From Rhodospirillaceae bacterium (GTDB lineage: Bacteria; Pseudomonadota; Alphaproteobacteria; UBA6615): a DNA stretch of 64,000 nt. Below are positions 430-9,952 of the stretch, one piece after another. The notes under the pieces are model-generated. The model was not told the DNA's origin. It saw only the letters and a list, made by a program, of their open reading frames with translations, and did no database searches. The first letter of the stretch is position 1. Every line of letters begins with the position of its first letter. Location of the stretch: NCBI GenBank assembly GCA_018667335.1, contig JABIVD010000018.1, positions 1 to 64,000 of the forward strand, given 5' to 3'. A program made the position numbers and the translations under genes.

Positions 430-1428
430 ATGATGATAAAAAGTATAAGCGCATTGGCGGTGATCGGCTTGTTGACCGTGCCGAGTTTGGCGACCGCCCA
501 AGAAACTATAAAGCTGAAATTTCACTCATCATTCGGGGAATCTCCCCTTAATGAAGCGCCACGCTGGTGGATGGATGAGGTCGAAAAGCGAACCGACGGC
601 AGGGTCAAGTTTACCCGCATCTTGGGCGGCGCGCTGGGCAAGCTCACTGCGGCACCGGAAAACATCAAGGTCGGCGCCTTCGACATGGGAAATGTTTCCG
701 TCGTCTACAACCCGGGTTTGTTTTCGCTGAGCAACGTTGTGTCGCTGCCGTTTATCAGCGACGACCCACTTGTTCACGCAAAGGCCGCTCATGAACTTCA
801 CAACACGACGACCAATGACGAGTTCAAGGCGATGGGTCAGAAGTATTTGGGCCCAGGCATGTGGACGAGGATTCAGATGCTGTCCCATGAACCTATTCGG
901 ACAATCGACGACCTGAAGAAACAGAAAATTCGTGCACATGGCGGTGCCTCGGAGCTTCTGAAAACGCTTGGTATTACGGTTTACGGTATTCCTTGGGGTG
1001 AACTTCCGGCAGCGGCCGAGCGCAAAGTCGTTACCGCAGGCATTATTGGTGCGCCGGCGGACGCTTATGCCTTCGGTTTCGGCAAGATCTTCAAGTACTG
1101 GGACCAGGAAGACTGGTTCCTCTTCCCGCTGACCTACACCATGAATCAGGATTCGTGGGACGCACTTCCTGACGATATCAAAACGGTTATGGAAGAGGTG
1201 AATGAGGAGATGGTCGTAGAAGGCCGCAAATTGATGGCTGCTCAGGAAGCAAAGTCGGGACCGGGGCTGGCCAGCCAGGTCGAGATTGTAAAGTTCGAGG
1301 AGATGGACAAGCTGATCGCCGCGAGGGACCAGACTTGGCAGAACTGGGTTGATGCCCGCAAGGCAGAGGGTAAAGACGGCCAGGCAGTTCTCGACACGTT
1401 CCTGGCCTTGCTGGACAAGCACAAGTAG
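430..1428 (+). CDS. dctP: TRAP transporter periplasmic solute-binding protein, DctP family
   Basis: A 332-residue protein that binds a carboxylate-type solute in the periplasm and delivers it to the DctQM permease. The start at 430 is set by a strong GGAGGAGG ribosome site at 420-427 and by an immediate signal peptide (residues 1-23, ending in ATAQ). The mature part has the DctP signatures: a DEVEKRTDGRV stretch, a central KIRAHGG segment where the family places its carboxylate-binding arginine, and a C-terminal helical region. The substrate cannot be read from sequence; the neighbouring dehydrogenases and XylX-like enzyme suggest a sugar acid. A longer reading from 253 exists but lacks a ribosome site and would bury the signal peptide. 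Confidence 0.9.
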   Translation: MMIKSISALAVIGLLTVPSLATAQETIKLKFHSSFGESPLNEAPRWWMDEVEKRTDGRVKFTRILGGALGKLTAAPENIKVGAFDMGNVSVVYNPGLFSLSNVVSLPFISDDPLVHAKAAHELHNTTTNDEFKAMGQKYLGPGMWTRIQMLSHEPIRTIDDLKKQKIRAHGGASELLKTLGITVYGIPWGELPAAAERKVVTAGIIGAPADAYAFGFGKIFKYWDQEDWFLFPLTYTMNQDSWDALPDDIKTVMEEVNEEMVVEGRKLMAAQEAKSGPGLASQVEIVKFEEMDKLIAARDQTWQNWVDARKAEGKDGQAVLDTFLALLDKHK

Positions 1429-1493
1429 CAGGCTACGAAGGCATGCCACGATCGGCAATTTCTGTTCGTTAAACCCGATCATAGTGTGACTTT

Positions 1494-1537
1494 CGGCAGG
1501 GCGGCCGGCATCGCAGACCGATGCAGCCGCCCTGCCG
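1494..1537 (+). promoter_or_regulatory. Strong hairpin between dctP and dctQ (attenuator or mRNA stabiliser)
   Basis: A perfect 12-bp stem (CGGCAGGGCGGC at 1494-1505 with GCCGCCCTGCCG at 1526-1537) encloses a second 6-bp stem (GCATCG/CGATGC) with a CAGAC loop. It is followed by only a short T run (CCTTTTGG). In many TRAP operons the binding protein is needed in large excess over the permease, and a hairpin in this gap protects or terminates part of the transcript. The 286-bp gap holds no other gene that I can support. Confidence 0.6.
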
Positions 1538-1714
1538 GCGACCTTTTGGTGACGACTGGTGTCGCAGCAGGGACAATTGTGCGCCGCAATGAACCGAGCT
1601 GATCGAGAGCTGTAGACTTGCCGCCATGTTCCATGTGTTGGCGTCGGAGTTTTGGGGTTTCCGCCCACTCCGTGTGAGTGTCGGGTAAGGGATTTCTGTT
1701 TCGGGGGAGCAGAC

Positions 1715-2281
1715 ATGAACAACTTCGCCGCGGTTGTTATTCAACTGCAGGATCGGCTCGAGGAGTGGCTCTGCTACGTCTCTGCTTTCGCGGTCGCAGT
1801 GATGATGCTGATCACGACGGTGGAGGTGATCGGACGGTCCGTCTTCTACGAGAGCGTGCCCGGCTCCTACGAATATGTAAGCCTGCTGTTCGTCTATCTG
1901 ATCTATCTGGGCCTCGCCTATTCCCAGCGCCGCGACGCGCACATCACGATCAGCCTCGTCTATGACTATCTGCCGCGCAAGGCCAGACAGATCGTCCAAG
2001 GTGTCTTCCTGCTGATTGCGATAGTGTTTTTCGCCGTGCTGACTGTGACCAGCGCCGATTCGACCTGGAGCAACTATGTGCTGGGCGACACGGTGCTGGG
2101 CACTATTGAGATAAAGACTTGGTGGGCCCGCGCCGGCGTTCCGGTCGGGTGCGGGTTACTAGCGCTGCGGTTCCTCACCCAATTCCTGCGCCTGGCGACC
2201 ACGGGTGAGCTTTACGAGGAAGAGGCGGCGCGTCAGACCGCCGCGCGTGCGCTCTCCGAGCAGGTGGAGGACGCATCATGA
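1715..2281 (+). CDS. dctQ: TRAP transporter small permease, DctQ family
   Basis: A 188-residue inner-membrane protein with four predicted membrane segments (about residues 18-40, 52-70, 90-112 and 140-160), the usual topology and length of DctQ subunits. It pairs with DctM to form the ion-driven permease. The ATG at 1715 has a GGGGGAG ribosome site at 1703-1709; the frame is open further upstream, but nothing there resembles the family. Its stop overlaps the next start (ATGA), so it is translationally coupled to dctM. Confidence 0.9.
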   Translation: MNNFAAVVIQLQDRLEEWLCYVSAFAVAVMMLITTVEVIGRSVFYESVPGSYEYVSLLFVYLIYLGLAYSQRRDAHITISLVYDYLPRKARQIVQGVFLLIAIVFFAVLTVTSADSTWSNYVLGDTVLGTIEIKTWWARAGVPVGCGLLALRFLTQFLRLATTGELYEEEAARQTAARALSEQVEDAS

Positions 2282-3582
2282 GCGATGAGCTTGGAATACC
2301 GCTGGTTCTCGTTCTCGCCGCGTTTATGTTGGTTCTGCGGATACCGATTGGCATCGTTCTTCTGCTCGCCGGCGCGCTGGGATTCTCGCTTGTGCGCGGC
2401 CCGGGCATCACCATGGACACAATCGGCGGGCGGCTTTTCGACATCGGGTCGGGATACGCGCTATCTGCCATTCCGCTGTTCCTGCTCATGGGGCATGTCG
2501 CGGCCAAGGCCGGCATCACACAGGACATCTACGGGGCCGCTCGCGCCTGGCTCGGTCATCTGAAAGGGAGCGTGGTCCTGGCGACGACCGTGGCCGCGGT
2601 GGGTTTCGCCGCATGTTCGGGCTCGACAACCTCATCCACGGCGGTGTTCGGCCGGGTCGCCATACCCGAGATGCTGCGACTGAAAGTCGATCGAAGGCTG
2701 GCGGCCGGTTGCGTGGCAACCGTGGGTACCCTGGCAGGGATGATCCCGCCCAGCATTAACTTGATCGTATTCGGCATTATTGCCCGCGAATCCGTTCCGC
2801 AACTACTGATCGCGGGAATCATTCCGGGGATCATGACGGCGTTGGCGTTCGTCCTGATGATCTACATACGTGTCCGACGGAATCCCGAACTGGCACCGAC
2901 CCTGCCGCGGGCCGGTCGAGATGAGCGAATGCGGTCGCTGAGGGGCGTGTGGAGCTTTCTGGCGCTCGGCGGCCTGGTGATCGGAGGCATCTATGCAGGC
3001 GTGTTCACACCAACCGAAGCCGGCGCCCTCGGCGCGGCCGGAGCATTCATCATTGCCATGGTGCGCCGAAAACTCTCTTTCTCGATGGTCAGGGAAGTAT
3101 TCCTCGAAACCGCGACGACTACATCGGTTATTTTCATTGTCCTGGTCGGCGCACTGATATTCACGTCGTATTTGGCGATTAGCGGGGGATCGACCGCCGT
3201 TTCGGAATACATCATCGCGCTCGACGTGCCACCGATAGTCCTGTTGCTCGGCTATGTGGTTTTGCTGCTGGCGCTCGGCTGTATTGTTGATCCGATTTCA
3301 GTGATGTTTCTCACGGTGCCGATCTTCGTGCCGCCCTTGGTGGCGCTCGGACTGCATCCGATCTGGATCGGCATTATCGTTGCCAAGACGCTTGAAATCG
3401 GCATGATCACACCGCCGATCGGGCTCAATGCGTTTGTTCTCAAGAGCGTCGTACCGTCTTTCTCGCTACGCGAGATCTTCGGCGGAATCTGGTGGTTCCT
3501 GCAGGTCGAGCTAGTCACCCTCGCGCTGTTGATCGCATTCCCTTGGCTGGCGCTGTGGCTGCCCAGTCTCGCCTTCGATTAA
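2278..3582 (+). CDS. dctM: TRAP transporter large permease, DctM family
   Basis: A 434-residue integral membrane protein with about a dozen hydrophobic segments, the channel-forming subunit of the TRAP transporter. It shows family hallmarks such as the CSGSTTSSTAVFG segment, the GTLAGMIPPSINLIV segment and the TPTEAGA motif near residue 245. Length matches the family. It overlaps dctQ by four bases, and the two SDR genes follow on the same strand, the first after 42 bp, so one operon is likely. Confidence 0.93.
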   Translation: MSDELGIPLVLVLAAFMLVLRIPIGIVLLLAGALGFSLVRGPGITMDTIGGRLFDIGSGYALSAIPLFLLMGHVAAKAGITQDIYGAARAWLGHLKGSVVLATTVAAVGFAACSGSTTSSTAVFGRVAIPEMLRLKVDRRLAAGCVATVGTLAGMIPPSINLIVFGIIARESVPQLLIAGIIPGIMTALAFVLMIYIRVRRNPELAPTLPRAGRDERMRSLRGVWSFLALGGLVIGGIYAGVFTPTEAGALGAAGAFIIAMVRRKLSFSMVREVFLETATTTSVIFIVLVGALIFTSYLAISGGSTAVSEYIIALDVPPIVLLLGYVVLLLALGCIVDPISVMFLTVPIFVPPLVALGLHPIWIGIIVAKTLEIGMITPPIGLNAFVLKSVVPSFSLREIFGGIWWFLQVELVTLALLIAFPWLALWLPSLAFD

Positions 3583-3624
3583 ACGCGCGAAAGCCAAACG
3601 CACCACCATCGGGAGTTAGTTGTT

Positions 3625-4434
3625 ATGATGCTTGAGGGAAAGAAGATTATCATTACCGGCGGTGCCAGCGGTATTGGCCGGGCAAGTGCGGTGTTGGCAG
3701 CGAACGAAGGCGCGGATATAGCGGTCGCCGATATCGACCGGGTTGCCGCCGACGCGACCGCTGAGTTAGTGCGCGCGAAGGGCCGCGAGGCGCTCGTCGT
3801 CGAGATGGACACCTCGAAAGTGGCTGACGCTCAGCGTATGGCAGACGAGGCCGTTGCCGCCTTCGGCACCATCGACGGAATTGTCTGTTGTGCGATCAAA
3901 CAAAAGCCGGCCAAGCTGGAGGAACTCTCCGAAGAAGAGTGGGACATGGTCATTGATATTGGCCTGAAGGGCTATTTCCTGTGCGCCCAGGCAGCCGGTC
4001 GGGTGATGCTGGAACGGGGTAGCGGTTCGATCGTGTTCGTGTCGTCGGTCGGCGGTGTGCAGGCCTATAACGGCGCTGGCGCCTATTCCATTGCCAAAGC
4101 GGGCAATGTGATGCTCGGCAATCTCTTTGGTGTCGAATGGGGCGGCCGCGGCGTGCGCGCCAACACTGTTTTGCCGGGTCAGGTGCCGACGCCGCTGACC
4201 CAGGCGATGTTTGATGACCCGGAGATTGCCGCTGGCCGAGCGGCAGTCGTGCCCATGGGGCGAGTGGGCCAGCCGGAAGAGATTGCCGAGGCTTGCGTGT
4301 TCCTGCTGTCGGACCGCGCCAGTTACGTCAATGCCGCTATGCTGAAAGTTGATGGTGGCCAGGCCGAAAGCAAGATGATGCACACGCCCGGCCGGAAATG
4401 GGGCGGCAAGAGCATGGACTACGAGGCAAGCTGA
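3625..4434 (+). CDS. Short-chain dehydrogenase/reductase (SDR), first of a tandem pair
   Basis: A 269-residue classical SDR. It has the cofactor loop TGGASGIG (residues 11-18), an aspartate at the end of strand two (VADID, about D36) that favours NAD over NADP, a catalytic serine near 141 and the YSIAK pair Y154/K158. The structural motif NNAG is replaced by CCAI at 88-91. The C-terminus carries a tail MMHTPGRKWGG shared with the next gene. Downstream of the TRAP genes it probably oxidises a hydroxyl of the imported substrate; the exact substrate is unknown. Confidence 0.88.
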   Translation: MMLEGKKIIITGGASGIGRASAVLAANEGADIAVADIDRVAADATAELVRAKGREALVVEMDTSKVADAQRMADEAVAAFGTIDGIVCCAIKQKPAKLEELSEEEWDMVIDIGLKGYFLCAQAAGRVMLERGSGSIVFVSSVGGVQAYNGAGAYSIAKAGNVMLGNLFGVEWGGRGVRANTVLPGQVPTPLTQAMFDDPEIAAGRAAVVPMGRVGQPEEIAEACVFLLSDRASYVNAAMLKVDGGQAESKMMHTPGRKWGGKSMDYEAS

Positions 4435-4477
4435 CCCGCTGCGGGATGGCCGGCGAAGCAGGAGAAGCGACAAAGCG

Positions 4478-5254
4478 ATGACGCAATTCGAGAACAAGGT
4501 ATGCATCGTTACAGGCGGTGCAAGCGGTATCGGCGCGAAGACGGCGGAAATGTTCGTCCAGCGGGGCGGACAGGTCGTCATTGGCGACGTCAATGACGAG
4601 GCTGGCGAAGGGCTTGCGGCGGCAATTGGCGATAAGGCGGTGTTTTTCCATCTCGATGTCAGCGATCCGGCGTCCTGCGAGGCTGCCGTCGATCTTGCGG
4701 TGGCACGGTTCGGCTCTGTCGATGGCGTCGTGAACAGCGCGATCAAGATGGCGCCGGGGCCGCTCAAGGACCTGGCCCACGCAGACTGGAATCTAGTGCT
4801 TGAAATCGGCCTGACGGGTAGTTTCCTGATGAGCCAGGCGGCGGGTCGCTGGATGATCGACAATGGTCGCAAGGGTTCGATCGTCATGCTCTCGTCGAAC
4901 GGCGGCCGCAATCCCTACGGGATGTCAGGCGCCTACTCCACGACCAAGGCGGGGTTGATCATGCTGGCTCAGCATCTCGCGATCGAATGGGCCCAGTATG
5001 GCATTCGTGCTAACGCCGTGTGTCCCGGTCACACGGAGACGCCACTGACGGCCTATCTCCAGGATCCCGAGATCAAACAGGCGCGCAGCGATGTGACACC
5101 GCTCGGCCGTGTCGGCCAACCCGAAGACATAGCCAACGGCATCCTGTTTCTATTGTCCGACGAGGCCGACTACGTCACGGCGGCGACGCTCGATATTGAC
5201 GGTGGTATCGCGAAGAGCGTGATGAACCACATGCCTGGTCGAAAGTGGAGCTAG
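4478..5254 (+). CDS. Short-chain dehydrogenase/reductase (SDR), second of a tandem pair
   Basis: A 258-residue SDR with TGGASGIG at 12-19, an acidic residue after strand two (GDVND, D37) suggesting NAD, and Y153/K157 in YSTTK. Like its neighbour it lacks NNAG, having NSAI at 86-89 followed by K, and it ends in a similar tail, MNHMPGRKWS. The two proteins look like diverged duplicates rather than unrelated SDRs. An AGGAG ribosome site lies upstream (4459-4463). The gene converges on the XylX-like gene with a 21-bp gap. Confidence 0.88.
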   Translation: MTQFENKVCIVTGGASGIGAKTAEMFVQRGGQVVIGDVNDEAGEGLAAAIGDKAVFFHLDVSDPASCEAAVDLAVARFGSVDGVVNSAIKMAPGPLKDLAHADWNLVLEIGLTGSFLMSQAAGRWMIDNGRKGSIVMLSSNGGRNPYGMSGAYSTTKAGLIMLAQHLAIEWAQYGIRANAVCPGHTETPLTAYLQDPEIKQARSDVTPLGRVGQPEDIANGILFLLSDEADYVTAATLDIDGGIAKSVMNHMPGRKWS

Positions 5255-5275
5255 AAATTCGCCTTTCGGGGTCGA

Positions 5276-6478
5276 TCAAAGAAGCTGGCGAGAGGCGAGA
5301 TTACGCATCAGGCTGGTAGTTCCGAAAGTCCATTCGGGGCATTCCGTCGAAAGGCGCACCGTGTTTTCCAGTGTGCCCAACATCGCGCTCTTGATTGTGA
5401 CCAGATCGCCAAGTTTGTGGGTAAAGCCTTGCCCGGGATCGTCGCGATCCTCGATCGGTGCAAACAGGGTCCCCATGAATAGAGCCATGCCTTCGGGGTA
5501 CTGGTGGTGTCGCCCGATCGCCTGACCAACGAGGTCGAGGGGATCGCGGCTAATTTCGCGCATGGAGCTTGCCCCCTCGAGGCGGTACCCGTCCTCCCCT
5601 ACAACCACCAATTCAATGTCGGCTTCGCGCACGTGGTTCAGGTCAAATGATTCATCGAACAGCCTTATGAAAGGCCCAATCGCCGATGATGCGTTGTTGT
5701 CCTTGGCTTTCCCCAGCAACAGAGCCGAACGTCCTTCGACGTCTCTCAAATTGACGTCGTTCCCCAAGGCTGCGCCTTTTATGCGTCCCTTGCTGTCGAC
5801 TGCGAGCACGATTTCGGGTTCAGGGTTGTTCCATACGGAGATCGGATGGAGCCCGATTTCTGCCCCCCAGCCGACGGAGGCCATCGGTTGGGCCTTTGTG
5901 AAAATCTCGGCATCAGGACCGATCCCGACTTCGAGATACTGAGACCAAAGGCCTTCCTCGACGAGCACGTCCTTGACCTTGGAGGCTTCTGCTGATCCCG
6001 GCACAATGTTGCGCAGGTTGTTGCCGATTGAGCGACCTATGCGTTCACGTATGGCAGCCGCCAGAGAAAAATCGCCGGCCGCGCGTTCCTCGATCACGCG
6101 TTCGACCATGGAACCGACAAATGTAACGCCGCAGGCTTTCACCGCCTGCAAATCGAACGGCGCAAGCAGCACGTCTGCTTCGACCATGACACCACATGAG
6201 TGCCGCGTCGCTTCGACGATTTCATCTAGGCTACCGATTTGTTCTCCCGAGTTCTCGCGAAGTAGACGAGGAGGATCATCGTGTTCCAGTAGATCTCGCA
6301 TCGTCGGAATATTCTTGCATGTGACATCGAAGACCTGTCCGTCCCGTATCTCGACGATCGATGCACCGCCCAGATCGGGTCGCCAAACACGGCCAACGAA
6401 ACGGCCTGTGTCAGGAATAATACGTTCCATCTTTGACTCCGCCTGTCGTGCTTTGCTCTCAGCCATAACGCCGCCCAT
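5276..6478 (-). CDS. XylX-like 2-keto-3-deoxy sugar-acid dehydratase (fumarylacetoacetate hydrolase family)
   Basis: A 400-residue protein matching the long FAH-superfamily type typified by Caulobacter XylX, which dehydrates 2-keto-3-deoxy-pentonates to 2-oxoglutarate semialdehyde. Recognisable stretches are VTFVGSMVERVIEER, DAEIFTKAQPM, WNNPEPE, the metal-site region GNDVNLRD, and KAKDNNASSAIGPF. The C-terminus, WTFGTTSLMRNLASRQLL, is typical. Starts at 6478 or at the downstream MERIIP are both possible. The match is at family level; the true substrate may be another 2-keto-3-deoxy acid. It is transcribed toward the SDR pair, so it is not in the TRAP operon but probably belongs to the same pathway. 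Confidence 0.75.
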   Translation of the reverse strand: MGGVMAESKARQAESKMERIIPDTGRFVGRVWRPDLGGASIVEIRDGQVFDVTCKNIPTMRDLLEHDDPPRLLRENSGEQIGSLDEIVEATRHSCGVMVEADVLLAPFDLQAVKACGVTFVGSMVERVIEERAAGDFSLAAAIRERIGRSIGNNLRNIVPGSAEASKVKDVLVEEGLWSQYLEVGIGPDAEIFTKAQPMASVGWGAEIGLHPISVWNNPEPEIVLAVDSKGRIKGAALGNDVNLRDVEGRSALLLGKAKDNNASSAIGPFIRLFDESFDLNHVREADIELVVVGEDGYRLEGASSMREISRDPLDLVGQAIGRHHQYPEGMALFMGTLFAPIEDRDDPGQGFTHKLGDLVTIKSAMLGTLENTVRLSTECPEWTFGTTSLMRNLASRQLL

Positions 6479-6560
6479 GCAGCCCGCAAATTAGACCCCG
6501 AGGGGCACTGTCAAAGCAAACTGCCTTCTAGCTTAGTAGGGTGGTTCGTAGCTTGGTCGG

Positions 6561-6821
6561 ATGAAGAATCCGTTTCGCTACTTCAACTCGTCGCCCGAAG
6601 TCATCCACCTCACGGCGATGATGTATTTGCGCTACCCGCTTTCGCTGCGCCAAGTCGAGAATCTTCCGTCCGAGCGAGGCATCGACATCTGCCACAAGGC
6701 AGCACGGTTCCGGCGGAGTCGGTTCGTTCCGATATGTGAGCCAGAGAGTCGCAAACTCCACATACATTTTTGTATTTGTTCGGTGCAGGTGGCTTCGGCC
6801 CCCCCCCGCAACCAAAATTAA
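6561..6821 (+). pseudogene. IS6-family transposase remnant
   Basis: The first 45 codons read MKNPFRYFNSSPEV and YLRYPLSLRQVENL then ERGIDICH, which is the N-terminus of rhizobial-type IS6/IS26-family DDE transposases. After that the protein diverges (KAARFRRSRF where the family has an aromatic-rich segment) and stops at 86 residues, before any catalytic D, D or E. Intact members are about 230 residues. The gene is therefore a decayed, non-functional fragment. Confidence 0.75.
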
Positions 6822-7224: not shown

Positions 7225-7485
7225 CCCGGATCGGGTCAAGCACCACTCACCGCGGCCCAAGGGCCCGGGCCGCTGTTTCGATCCCGGGATTAGATACTCG
7301 GCCGTATCGGTAGTGTTTGATCGGAGGACATAGTTCTTGAGGCATGAGCCTAGGCAGCGTTAGCCTTGTGGGCTCCCGCTTTTAGACATATCGTTATTCA
7401 CTCCCCCGATCAAAAATCTGACGGCCGCCCAAAGGAGGCTAGACAGGATCATTTGGGAAATGTCGGATTAAGGAAGAGAACAGCG

Positions 7486-8310
7486 ATGAATAAAACTTTC
7501 AGTCTATTAGTTCTCGGTTTCCTAGGCTCGATCATCGCGGCTTGCCAGTCAACAGCGGCTTCGAATACCGTTGTCTCTTGGGTGACACTGCACACCTCGG
7601 CGGGGGAAACCGTGCGCGCACTCTACGCCGAACCCAAGCAGGCGGGGCGGCGGCCGGCGGTCATCTACAATCACGGTACGGGCGTACGCCAGTTCGGATA
7701 TGACGGCGCCGCGGCCAAGGGCTATGACGTCAAGGATTATGTGCGGGCAATTGCCGATGCCGGCTATGTCGCTCTGGCGCCTATTAGGGAGTTCAACAGC
7801 GATACGGCCCGTTTCGAACGCGGTCAGACGGTTGGCTCCGAGGCGGCCTGGGACGGCGTTGTCGAGGGAGGCATTCGCACTGTGCATGCGGCGCGCGCAT
7901 ACCTCACGGCAAGCCCCAGGGTGGCGGCCGACAAGATCGCCGTCATCGGTTTCTCTGAAGGCGGTAATGTCACCTTGTGGTCTCTGCTGGAGAATGCCAA
8001 CTACGCGGCGGCCGTTCTCATGTCGCCGGCTACCTTGCGCTCGGCGAGAAAATTTGGCCTTCGCTCGGCCGGCAAAGACCCCCGTATAGAGACCCTGACG
8101 CTGCCTGTTTTATTGACTGTCGGCGCCGACGACATGCGCCAAATTCGGAGGGTTACGAGTCGGCTGCTAGCACCGCGTCTCTCGCAGGTCAGTCAGGATT
8201 TTGCGTTCAAGGACAAATATCCAGGAGGGCACAAGTGGTTCCACAAGGTACGTCCCGAGCACTGGCGCGACGTTACGGCCTTTCTTCATTGCCGCTTTTC
8301 TCATTGCTAG
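7486..8310 (+). CDS. Dienelactone-hydrolase-like alpha/beta hydrolase, lipoprotein
   Basis: A 274-residue protein from the ATG at 7486, which is preceded by AGGAAGAG at 7471-7478. The N-terminus is a lipoprotein signal (hydrophobic core, then IIAAC with Cys near residue 20), so it is probably anchored in the envelope. The hydrolase core shows YNHG, a nucleophile elbow GFSEGG, an acid in VGADDM and a histidine in the GGHKWFH segment, giving a complete Ser-Asp-His triad of the DLH type. The substrate is unknown, perhaps an ester. The end, FLHCRFSHC, is odd for the family and coincides with the repeat also seen at 6906-6929. It sits alone in an IS-rich region. Confidence 0.75.
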   Translation: MNKTFSLLVLGFLGSIIAACQSTAASNTVVSWVTLHTSAGETVRALYAEPKQAGRRPAVIYNHGTGVRQFGYDGAAAKGYDVKDYVRAIADAGYVALAPIREFNSDTARFERGQTVGSEAAWDGVVEGGIRTVHAARAYLTASPRVAADKIAVIGFSEGGNVTLWSLLENANYAAAVLMSPATLRSARKFGLRSAGKDPRIETLTLPVLLTVGADDMRQIRRVTSRLLAPRLSQVSQDFAFKDKYPGGHKWFHKVRPEHWRDVTAFLHCRFSHC

Positions 8311-8893
8311 GGTTATAGGTTGGGCGTTTTGGCCTCACCCCGATTAGGCCCTATTACCTGAAGAATAAAAGCTTCCACAAAGCACCCCCGTGGCCCGTGA
8401 GCCGTGGCCCTGGGACACTGTCCCGCGGGCATTGTCACATTAACATGATCGAATGCTCAGACTGCTCGATGAATTGTAGGAGCTTGAACAGATCCTGCCC
8501 CCGATTTGAACCTGCTCTGGGCGGTTAGTTCAGATTCCTATTCGTGCAACCGGAAAGCCTGTTAACGACCAAATCCCTCTCCCTCCGCCATTAATCTCCC
8601 GTCACACCTATGTAAGAACACCGCATGCGCGGCCCTATTCCGAATGAATTCGGCGCGCGATGTCTCAAGCCTTCGTGATTGTCTGGCGACCATCTGTGAA
8701 AATCACAGCTTCACACCCCTCTGGAGCGCGCCCTTCAGATGTATGGCGCTCATTCTCTGTCCACGTCCTCGGACTGCTGGAGAAGGGTAGTCGAGAGTTT
8801 GATTCCGGTTGAGCCCTCATCAGTTGATCGGACCGGACCGTGTGGTCGTCAACAGCTCGGAGTAACGGGCGGTGTTGCGGTCTAGACGCCGGG
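8311..8893. other. Gene-poor stretch
   Basis: These 583 bases contain no reading frame with family resemblance or a credible ribosome site. The only recognisable item is the tRNA-Ser 3'-end copy at 8572-8590. The composition is less GC-rich than the core genes to the right. A weak minus-strand frame at 8665-8967 overlaps the chimeric gene and is not supported. Confidence 0.6.
8572..8590 (+). other. Duplicated tRNA-Ser 3' end, likely integration (att) site
   Basis: The 19 bases AATCCCTCTCCCTCCGCCA parse exactly as a tRNA end: T-loop AAT, T-stem CCCTC, acceptor strand TCCCTCC, discriminator G73 and CCA. G73 and this wording fit bacterial tRNA-Ser. The 5' part of a tRNA (GGAGGGA, anticodon arm) is absent upstream, so this is not a tRNA gene. 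Tyrosine-recombinase elements integrating into a tRNA gene leave such a 3' copy at their far end. The orientation places the element on the left (below 8572) and the intact tRNA beyond the left edge. Confidence 0.6.
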
Positions 8894-9856
8894 TCAGGTG
8901 CCGCAAAAAGTCTGGTAGGGCAGGGTCGTTTGCGCTCCGGGTTCGGCGTAGCTCTCTTGACCTGCAATCACATCGAACGGATGACTCACGGCAGCGAGCA
9001 GCGCCTCGAAGGGGGACATGTCCTCGTGCTCGACTGCAGCGGTTAGAGCCTCTTCGACCTTGTGATTGCGCGGGATATAGATCGGATTGATCCGGTCCAT
9101 CGCATCTGCGCGTGCCTCTGCTTCGACATCTTCTCCGGACAGCCGCGCGCGCCAGTTTTCCAACCAAGTGTTGATGGCGGAAAGCTCGGCGAACTGGCCC
9201 TGCACAGGGATCGCATTGCCACGTACCGCCGTTGCCAAGTGACGGAAAACCAAAGTGAAGTCGGCACCGCCTTGATGCATCGCTGTCAAAAGACCGCCGA
9301 TCAGTTCGCCATCCGCTGCTTGTTCCGTGGTCAGGCCAATTTTCCGGCGCATTGCCGCCGTCCAGTGCGCGTCATAGCGCGCGGGGGTGGTGTTGATTAC
9401 GTCGGTCAAAATCTCGATTGCGCCGTCCTTGTCGGGATCAATCAACGGGATCAGGGTTTCTGCCAGTCGCGCAAGATTCCAGCCCAGAATGTCAGGCTGG
9501 TTGCCATAGGCGTAGCGGCCTTGGGTGTCGATGGAACTGAAGACCGTGTCCGGCGCGTAGCTGTCCATGAAGGCGCAAGGGCCGTAGTCGATGGTCTCGC
9601 CCGAAATGGTTGTGTTGTCGGTGACCGCGGTCGGCCGGTTGTGGAACTCGAACCCGTTCGCATCGAGGGTGAGCTCGTCCGCGACGGAGCGCCCGTCATA
9701 GACCGGCACCGTGCGGTGGTCCGGGGTCTCGTCGCGTCGGTTGGACTCGCCGTAGGGCGAAATATGGGTGACCGGCTTGATGCCGTTGTCGACGACGTAG
9801 TTCACCGAGGCTTCGATGAACGGGAGATCCTGGGTGTCGTATGCCGGTTGCGTCAT
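8894..9856 (-). pseudogene. Chimeric gene: CmcJ/NvfI-type N-terminus fused to SelO C-terminal half
   Basis: An uninterrupted 320-codon frame made of two unrelated families. Residues 1 to about 78 resemble the start of CmcJ/NvfI-family oxidoreductases (EASVNYVV, DHRTVPVYDGR, LDANGFEFHNRPTAV). From about residue 79 the sequence is the protein adenylyltransferase SelO (YdiU): TDN-TTISGETIDYGPCAFMD at 79-98, then SSIDTQGRYAYGNQP, WNLARLAE, IPRNHKVEEA and the end TFCGT. SelO is normally about 490 residues. The missing half carries its nucleotide-binding lysine and glutamate, so catalysis is unlikely although the metal-site DYG remains. CmcJ likewise lacks most of its fold. The ATG at 9856 is preferred over a TTG at 9895. 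It is probably a deletion product, since both families have a TD pair at the joint. Confidence 0.8.
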
Positions 9857-9952
9857 GGGACGTCTCGCGAATGGTTGTGCCGTTGCAGGTATCAAATAGG
9901 TTCCGGTGGGCGCCTGTCGAGCGGATTCTGTCGCTGCACCTGAACTGGGTTC

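Follow-up and report, generated by a model that had tools for sequence, protein, structure and literature searches.

An open reading frame of 320 codons with a TGA stop occupies positions 8894–9856 on the minus strand of the 64 000-nucleotide stretch of DNA analysed here (the window), which lies on contig C14 of the 62-contig draft genome G000. It starts with an ATG at 9856, ends at 8894–8896 and is a chimera, made of the front of one enzyme and the back of another. Residues 1–80 (9617–9856, minus strand) are the N-terminus of an oxidoreductase of the CmcJ/NvfI family, and residues 79–320 (8894–9623, minus strand) correspond to residues 255–496 of SelO in the numbering of genome G003; the assignments are based on profile matches (NF041278 and PF02696, respectively) and on DNA identity. 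The genomes compared include six of the same genus (G001, G002, G003, G004, G005 and G006) and one of another genus (G017). By our reading of their sampling names, the close relatives may be of marine or Caspian-type origin.

In the CmcJ-derived part, residues 15–81 align with positions 1–68 of the 263 positions of the NCBIfam profile NF041278 (CmcJ_NvfI_EfuI; E 2.5e-8). The score of 33.9 bits is below the whole-protein cut-off of 80 bits, as expected for a fragment, and the chimera has no full-length CmcJ/NvfI match over the curated cut-off; the intact CmcJ of G006 scores 315.4 bits over positions 1–263. In the other part, residues 79–289 match the Pfam SelO profile (PF02696) above its cut-off (E 1.1e-36), covering only positions 250–464 of the 466 or so that make up the full-length domain. 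The NCBIfam SelO equivalogs give 149–161 bits for cut-offs of 850–900; the intact SelO of G003 is also under both of these cut-offs (394–403 bits) and passes NF000658 (549.6 against 431).

The two halves are 96.7 per cent (SelO, 242 amino acids) and 92.5 per cent (CmcJ, 80 amino acids) identical to full-length proteins of G003, so that the composition of the frame is far beyond chance. At the DNA level, the selO part is 93–97% identical to G003, G005 and G006, and the cmcJ part 82–87% to the same genomes, over an aligned stretch that includes about 70 bases upstream of the ATG. This ATG is the cmcJ start codon of the relatives (M-A/T-Q-P-A-Y-D). The sequence-only reading of the window had named both parent families and the 320-codon open frame, and all of this is confirmed; the possibility that residues 1–78 are a SelO N-terminus is ruled out by the match of these residues to the CmcJ/NvfI profile.

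Homology to the cmcJ loci of G001, G003, G005 and G006 reaches position 9617 from the right and homology to the selO loci of G003, G005 and G006 reaches position 9623 from the left; the two overlap in the 7-base microhomology CACCGAC (9617–9623, minus strand). The coding strand at the joint is GCGGTCACCGACAACAC. The corresponding stretch is GTCACCGACTTC in the cmcJ of G003 and G005, and AACACCGACAAC in the selO of G003, G005 and G006. CACCGAC is present in these three selO genes and these two cmcJ genes, differs by one base in the cmcJ of G006 and G001, and is read in the same frame by both parents. The joint is also a breakpoint of synteny: the right side is collinear with the cmcJ loci of G003, G005 and G006, and the left side with the selO locus of G003. 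The GC content is 55–60% to the left and mostly 61–65% to the right, and there is no Rfam match near the joint. From the protein the joint had been placed at residues 79–81, which is right to within one residue: T79 and D80 are shared by the parents, N81 belongs to SelO only. The recombination proposed at this Thr–Asp pair finds its microhomology in the seven bases common to both parents.

Several neighbouring features of the window recur around selO or cmcJ in the relatives. A TRAP transporter, two SDRs and an FAH-like gene form a catabolic cargo (496–6455) that has the same order beside selO in G003. It is followed by the remnant of an IS6/IS240-type transposase (6502–6733), an element also present near tRNA-Ser and near selO in G006, and by a dienelactone-hydrolase-like cargo gene (7366–8310, plus strand; PF01738). 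The latter adjoins an att-like site, located just past the 3′ end of selO and detected by pattern matching, in which a copy of the 3′ end of tRNA-Ser (TGGCGGAGGGAGAGGGATT) is followed by the arm TGGTCGTTAAC (8561–8590, minus strand). On the other side of the chimera, positions 9928–9951 mark the place between cmcJ and a GST gene at which G003, G005, G006 and G011 carry an FAD monooxygenase gene; this gene is absent from G000 and G001. The broken left end of the contig is marked by a 140-base repeat (74–215), 94% alike to stretches with which contigs C53 and C29 open and to others within C52 and C3.

An intact tRNA-Ser(GGA) gene lies near cmcJ in G001 (about 0.2 kb), G002 (1.2 kb), G004 (1.8 kb) and, in the other genus, G017 (5.4 kb). 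A selO match is present in G003, G005 and G006, and there is none in G001, G002 and G004. All four genomes of the genus that bear selO, including G000, have an att-like copy of the tRNA-Ser 3′ end at most about 330 bases from selO (in G005, within the same homologous stretch). The copy is upstream of selO in G003 and G005, downstream in the window and on both sides in G006, whose selO unit measures 1811 bases core to core (L017:5499–7310). Window positions 8501–8590, which include the arm, are homologous to the region that precedes selO in G003 and G005; further coordinates of selO units are L019:9263–9590 and L021:1707–1794. These tRNA-Ser-end repeats are sharper and commoner than chance: 20 matches were found in 10 genomes (7 att-like and 13 intact), the reversed pattern matched nowhere in these genomes, and three shuffled versions of the window yielded no match with as many as nine mismatches allowed in 30.

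The border of the unit is equally sharp. In bins of 30 bases, the identity of G003 and G005 inside the core is 0.80–0.90 for the first six bins, 0.40 for one later bin and 0.90–1.00 for the rest; outside the core it is 0.13–0.40. Homology stops exactly at the core, and the selO unit therefore begins there. The selO genes are 94% (G003–G005) and 93% (G003–G006) identical in DNA, compared with about 80% for the cmcJ regions, and between G003 and G017 the proteins are 89% (SelO) and 79% (CmcJ) identical. This likeness of SelO within the genus is not extreme, since lepA, a conserved gene adjoining the tRNA, is about 90–91% alike between G000 and G005 or G006. What is unusual about selO is its changing neighbours and its sharp border rather than its degree of likeness. 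We take these features as a sign that selO is a one-gene mobile unit in this genus, bordered by tRNA-Ser 3′-end copies and a common arm, and lost again. More tRNA-Ser-end copies, away from selO and beside other cargo (L159:844–977 on contig C112 of G005; L163:6881–6910 on contig C1 of G006), suggest further units of the same kind.

In G000, the intact tRNA-Ser gene and lepA are on contig C27, apart from the displaced 3′ fragment on C14; in G005 and G006, as in G000, the contig with tRNA-Ser is not the one with cmcJ. At L153:12957–16979 of C27, tRNA-Ser(GGA) and lepA are followed, up to the contig end, by a serine recombinase gene broken into two frames, an unassigned integrase-like frame and a gene for a phage integrase.

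The joint was sought in other genomes, as the sequence-only reading had proposed. Matches to the chimera occur in 33 of 60 genomes (G000 included), and they span both halves in G000 only. Among the 24 genomes of the family (G000 included), 15 have a match at 1e-20; besides G000, the SelO part is found in 10, the CmcJ part in 12 and both in eight, always in separate places, and, G000 apart, none of the 24 has the fusion. A scan of one genome per species, in which the records of G000 itself may be omitted, retained 80 loci out of 88 confirmed; in 79 of them the match begins at residue 79 or 86, in one it covers residues 1–80, and none crosses the joint. A 26-base pattern of the joint has no match in viral contigs. 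A shared or older fusion, of which no trace was seen outside G000 in any of these sets, was rejected; in the relatives the parents are separate genes. Among the papers listed by our literature searches on microhomology gene fusions and on fused or chimeric SelO genes, none has an entry that describes this fusion. A search on SelO and genomic islands brought up, among the eight of 14 papers listed, PMC3281104 and otherwise work on Staphylococcus; PMC3281104 names three eukaryotic SelO proteins with extra domains.

The lost halves were sought in G000 itself. A second intact SelO was not found in this genome, where the SelO family search gives one place, matching profile positions 250–464. The 5′ half of the G003 selO with 9.6 kb upstream, used as a DNA query, gave 12 matches, none in the selO half, among the best 40 of 153 candidates. 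With the 3′ part of the G006 cmcJ and its downstream region, the orthologous half was not found among the best 40 of 145 candidates; this query recovered paralogue-like gene matches of 64–70% and a short piece in the window itself. In these two scored sets the gene matches are diverged only (64–72%), compared with about 80% or more in DNA for orthologues within the genus. With scoring confined to these parts of the candidate lists, a weak match could have been missed.

These searches bear on the possibility that the assembler joined the read paths of cmcJ and selO and that the organism has both genes intact, which we consider unlikely. G000 is a draft, the named close relatives are known from MAG records, assembly is difficult in island regions, and the repeat at the left end of the contig is shared with four other contigs. 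An exact overlap of seven bases is, however, much shorter than a k-mer overlap error would require, and a misjoin would normally leave the complementary halves in the assembly, where they were not found. The identities to G003 are also about equal on the two flanks of the joint (84.6% and 83.0%), and the tRNA-Ser island independently explains the linkage of the two loci. Nothing found points to an error of this kind, which the sequence-only reading had named as a ground for refutation.

The fused branch has accumulated five private changes, four synonymous and one non-synonymous. Three synonymous changes and the non-synonymous one fall in the first 238 codons of the SelO part (compared with five references), and one synonymous change in the 80 codons of the CmcJ part (seven references). 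Pairwise dN/dS of the fused SelO part is 0.20 against G003, 0.11 against G005 and 0.13 against G006; for intact selO it is 0.09 (G003–G005), 0.18 (G003–G006) and 0.13 (G005–G006). The fused copy is at most at the upper edge of the intact range. The open frame had been read as either recent or retained for a new role, and purifying selection had been proposed as a check. With just five private changes, recency alone explains the open frame and is the favoured part of this alternative; as for retention, the changes are too few to speak for selection either way.

The nucleotide-binding residues of SelO are Lys113, Glu136, Arg176 and Arg183 in the numbering of P. syringae (PMC8097203). The chimera lacks the 254 N-terminal residues of SelO and, with them, the equivalents of all four; its alignment to 6eac starts at chain residue 251, which bears out the loss of the nucleotide-binding lysine and glutamate predicted from the sequence. 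The metal ligands Asn253 and Asp262 are retained as N81 and D90; these lie in the aligned TDN...D-F/Y-GP stretch and have the nine-residue spacing of the reference. For NvfI, the iron-binding residues are His135, His137 and Asp250 (PMC8292354). In the CmcJ parent of G006, the only H-x-D (HND, residues 136–138) is past the cut at residue 80. Since the SelO nucleotide-binding residues are lost and the CmcJ part ends at residue 80, neither parental activity is expected, and the product is probably without function. Transcription is plausible, given the conservation of the ATG and of about 70 bases upstream with the cmcJ of relatives. In an AlphaFold model of the chimera, residues 1–111 have a pLDDT below 50 and the helical part is confident from about residue 130; the model carries no weight on the question of whether folding is disturbed by the fused N-terminus, because intact SelO of G003 is equally poor in the same region (231–296).

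We regard as very unlikely a retained new gene, driven by the cmcJ promoter and encoding, for instance, a SelO C-lobe protein without catalysis. The 320 open codons, the conserved start region and the two remaining metal ligands would agree with it; yet the open frame needs no explanation beyond its age, the pairwise dN/dS values of 0.09–0.20 against G003 mostly reflect evolution before the fusion, the four nucleotide-binding residues are gone, and no other family genome searched has the fusion. Its more specific form, a young gene kept because a freed SelO C-lobe would be useful, for instance by binding SelO or its targets without modifying them, we also hold to be very unlikely.

The most likely origin of the chimera is a recent deletion that left a scar at the border of a genomic island. 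We think it probable that a microhomology deletion inside a tRNA-Ser additive island fused cmcJ to selO in frame. The island would sit at the tRNA-Ser gene adjoining cmcJ, selO would have entered it on a short tRNA-flanked unit, and in the lineage of G000 selO would have stood downstream of cmcJ before the event. A deletion between the 7-base repeats would then have joined cmcJ codon 80 to selO codon 255. If selO was the first unit after cmcJ, about 1.9 kb would have been lost: codons 81 to the end of cmcJ (about 0.6 kb), the spacer to the tRNA (about 0.2 kb, as in G001), the distance from the core to the selO start (0.33 kb, as in G003) and selO codons 1–254 (0.76 kb); with other cargo in between, the deletion would be larger. 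The product would be transcribed from the cmcJ promoter, have no enzymatic activity and decay. The illegitimate recombination of the sequence-only reading stands as regards the microhomology; that reading missed the position at the edge of the tRNA-Ser island, which would account for the meeting of cmcJ and selO. The order before the deletion is inferred, as in none of the genomes searched do cmcJ and selO still lie next to each other.

Template switching, inversion or translocation, instead of the simple deletion of an interval, would leave the same 7-base joint, which counts against the deletion reading, and selO and cmcJ are indeed on separate contigs in G003 and G006. We nevertheless rate such an origin as decidedly unlikely: neither a reciprocal joint nor leftover halves were found in G000 among the best 40 of 153 and 40 of 145 candidates, and, with cmcJ and selO both linked to one tRNA-Ser site, a local deletion needs fewer steps.

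As a deletion fusion, the chimera is no different in principle from other genes formed at microhomologies, with two parents, a few shared bases, the loss of an interval and a one-in-three chance of keeping the frame; as far as our searches show, the pair of parents is new. It keeps the C-terminal half of SelO (YdiU, UPF0061), a protein adenylyltransferase, including the equivalents of Asn253 and Asp262 and without the N-terminal 254 residues. With the CmcJ/NvfI oxygenases of the Fe(II)/2-oxoglutarate type it shares residues 1–80, the rest of the domain being missing. Reports on marine bacteria describe additive flexible genomic islands in which the last 20 bases of tRNA-Lys are repeated (PMC10872708), and island cassettes whose ends are direct repeats of a partial tRNA gene (PMC7771536); the fusion would be a further deletion product of turnover of this kind. 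G000 and its congeners are similar in being marine bacteria whose cargo is bordered by tRNA 3′-end copies and would lie beside the intact tRNA, which in G000 is on another contig. They differ in that the repeats come from tRNA-Ser(GGA) and that selO alone makes up one cargo (the G006 unit).

The locus provides a base-by-base case in which the turnover of a tRNA-linked island yields an in-frame chimera of two unrelated enzymes, and such an open frame can pass for a new gene. A more useful by-product of the analysis concerns selO, which encodes a widely conserved AMPylating pseudokinase and is apparently mobile in this marine genus as a one-gene unit.
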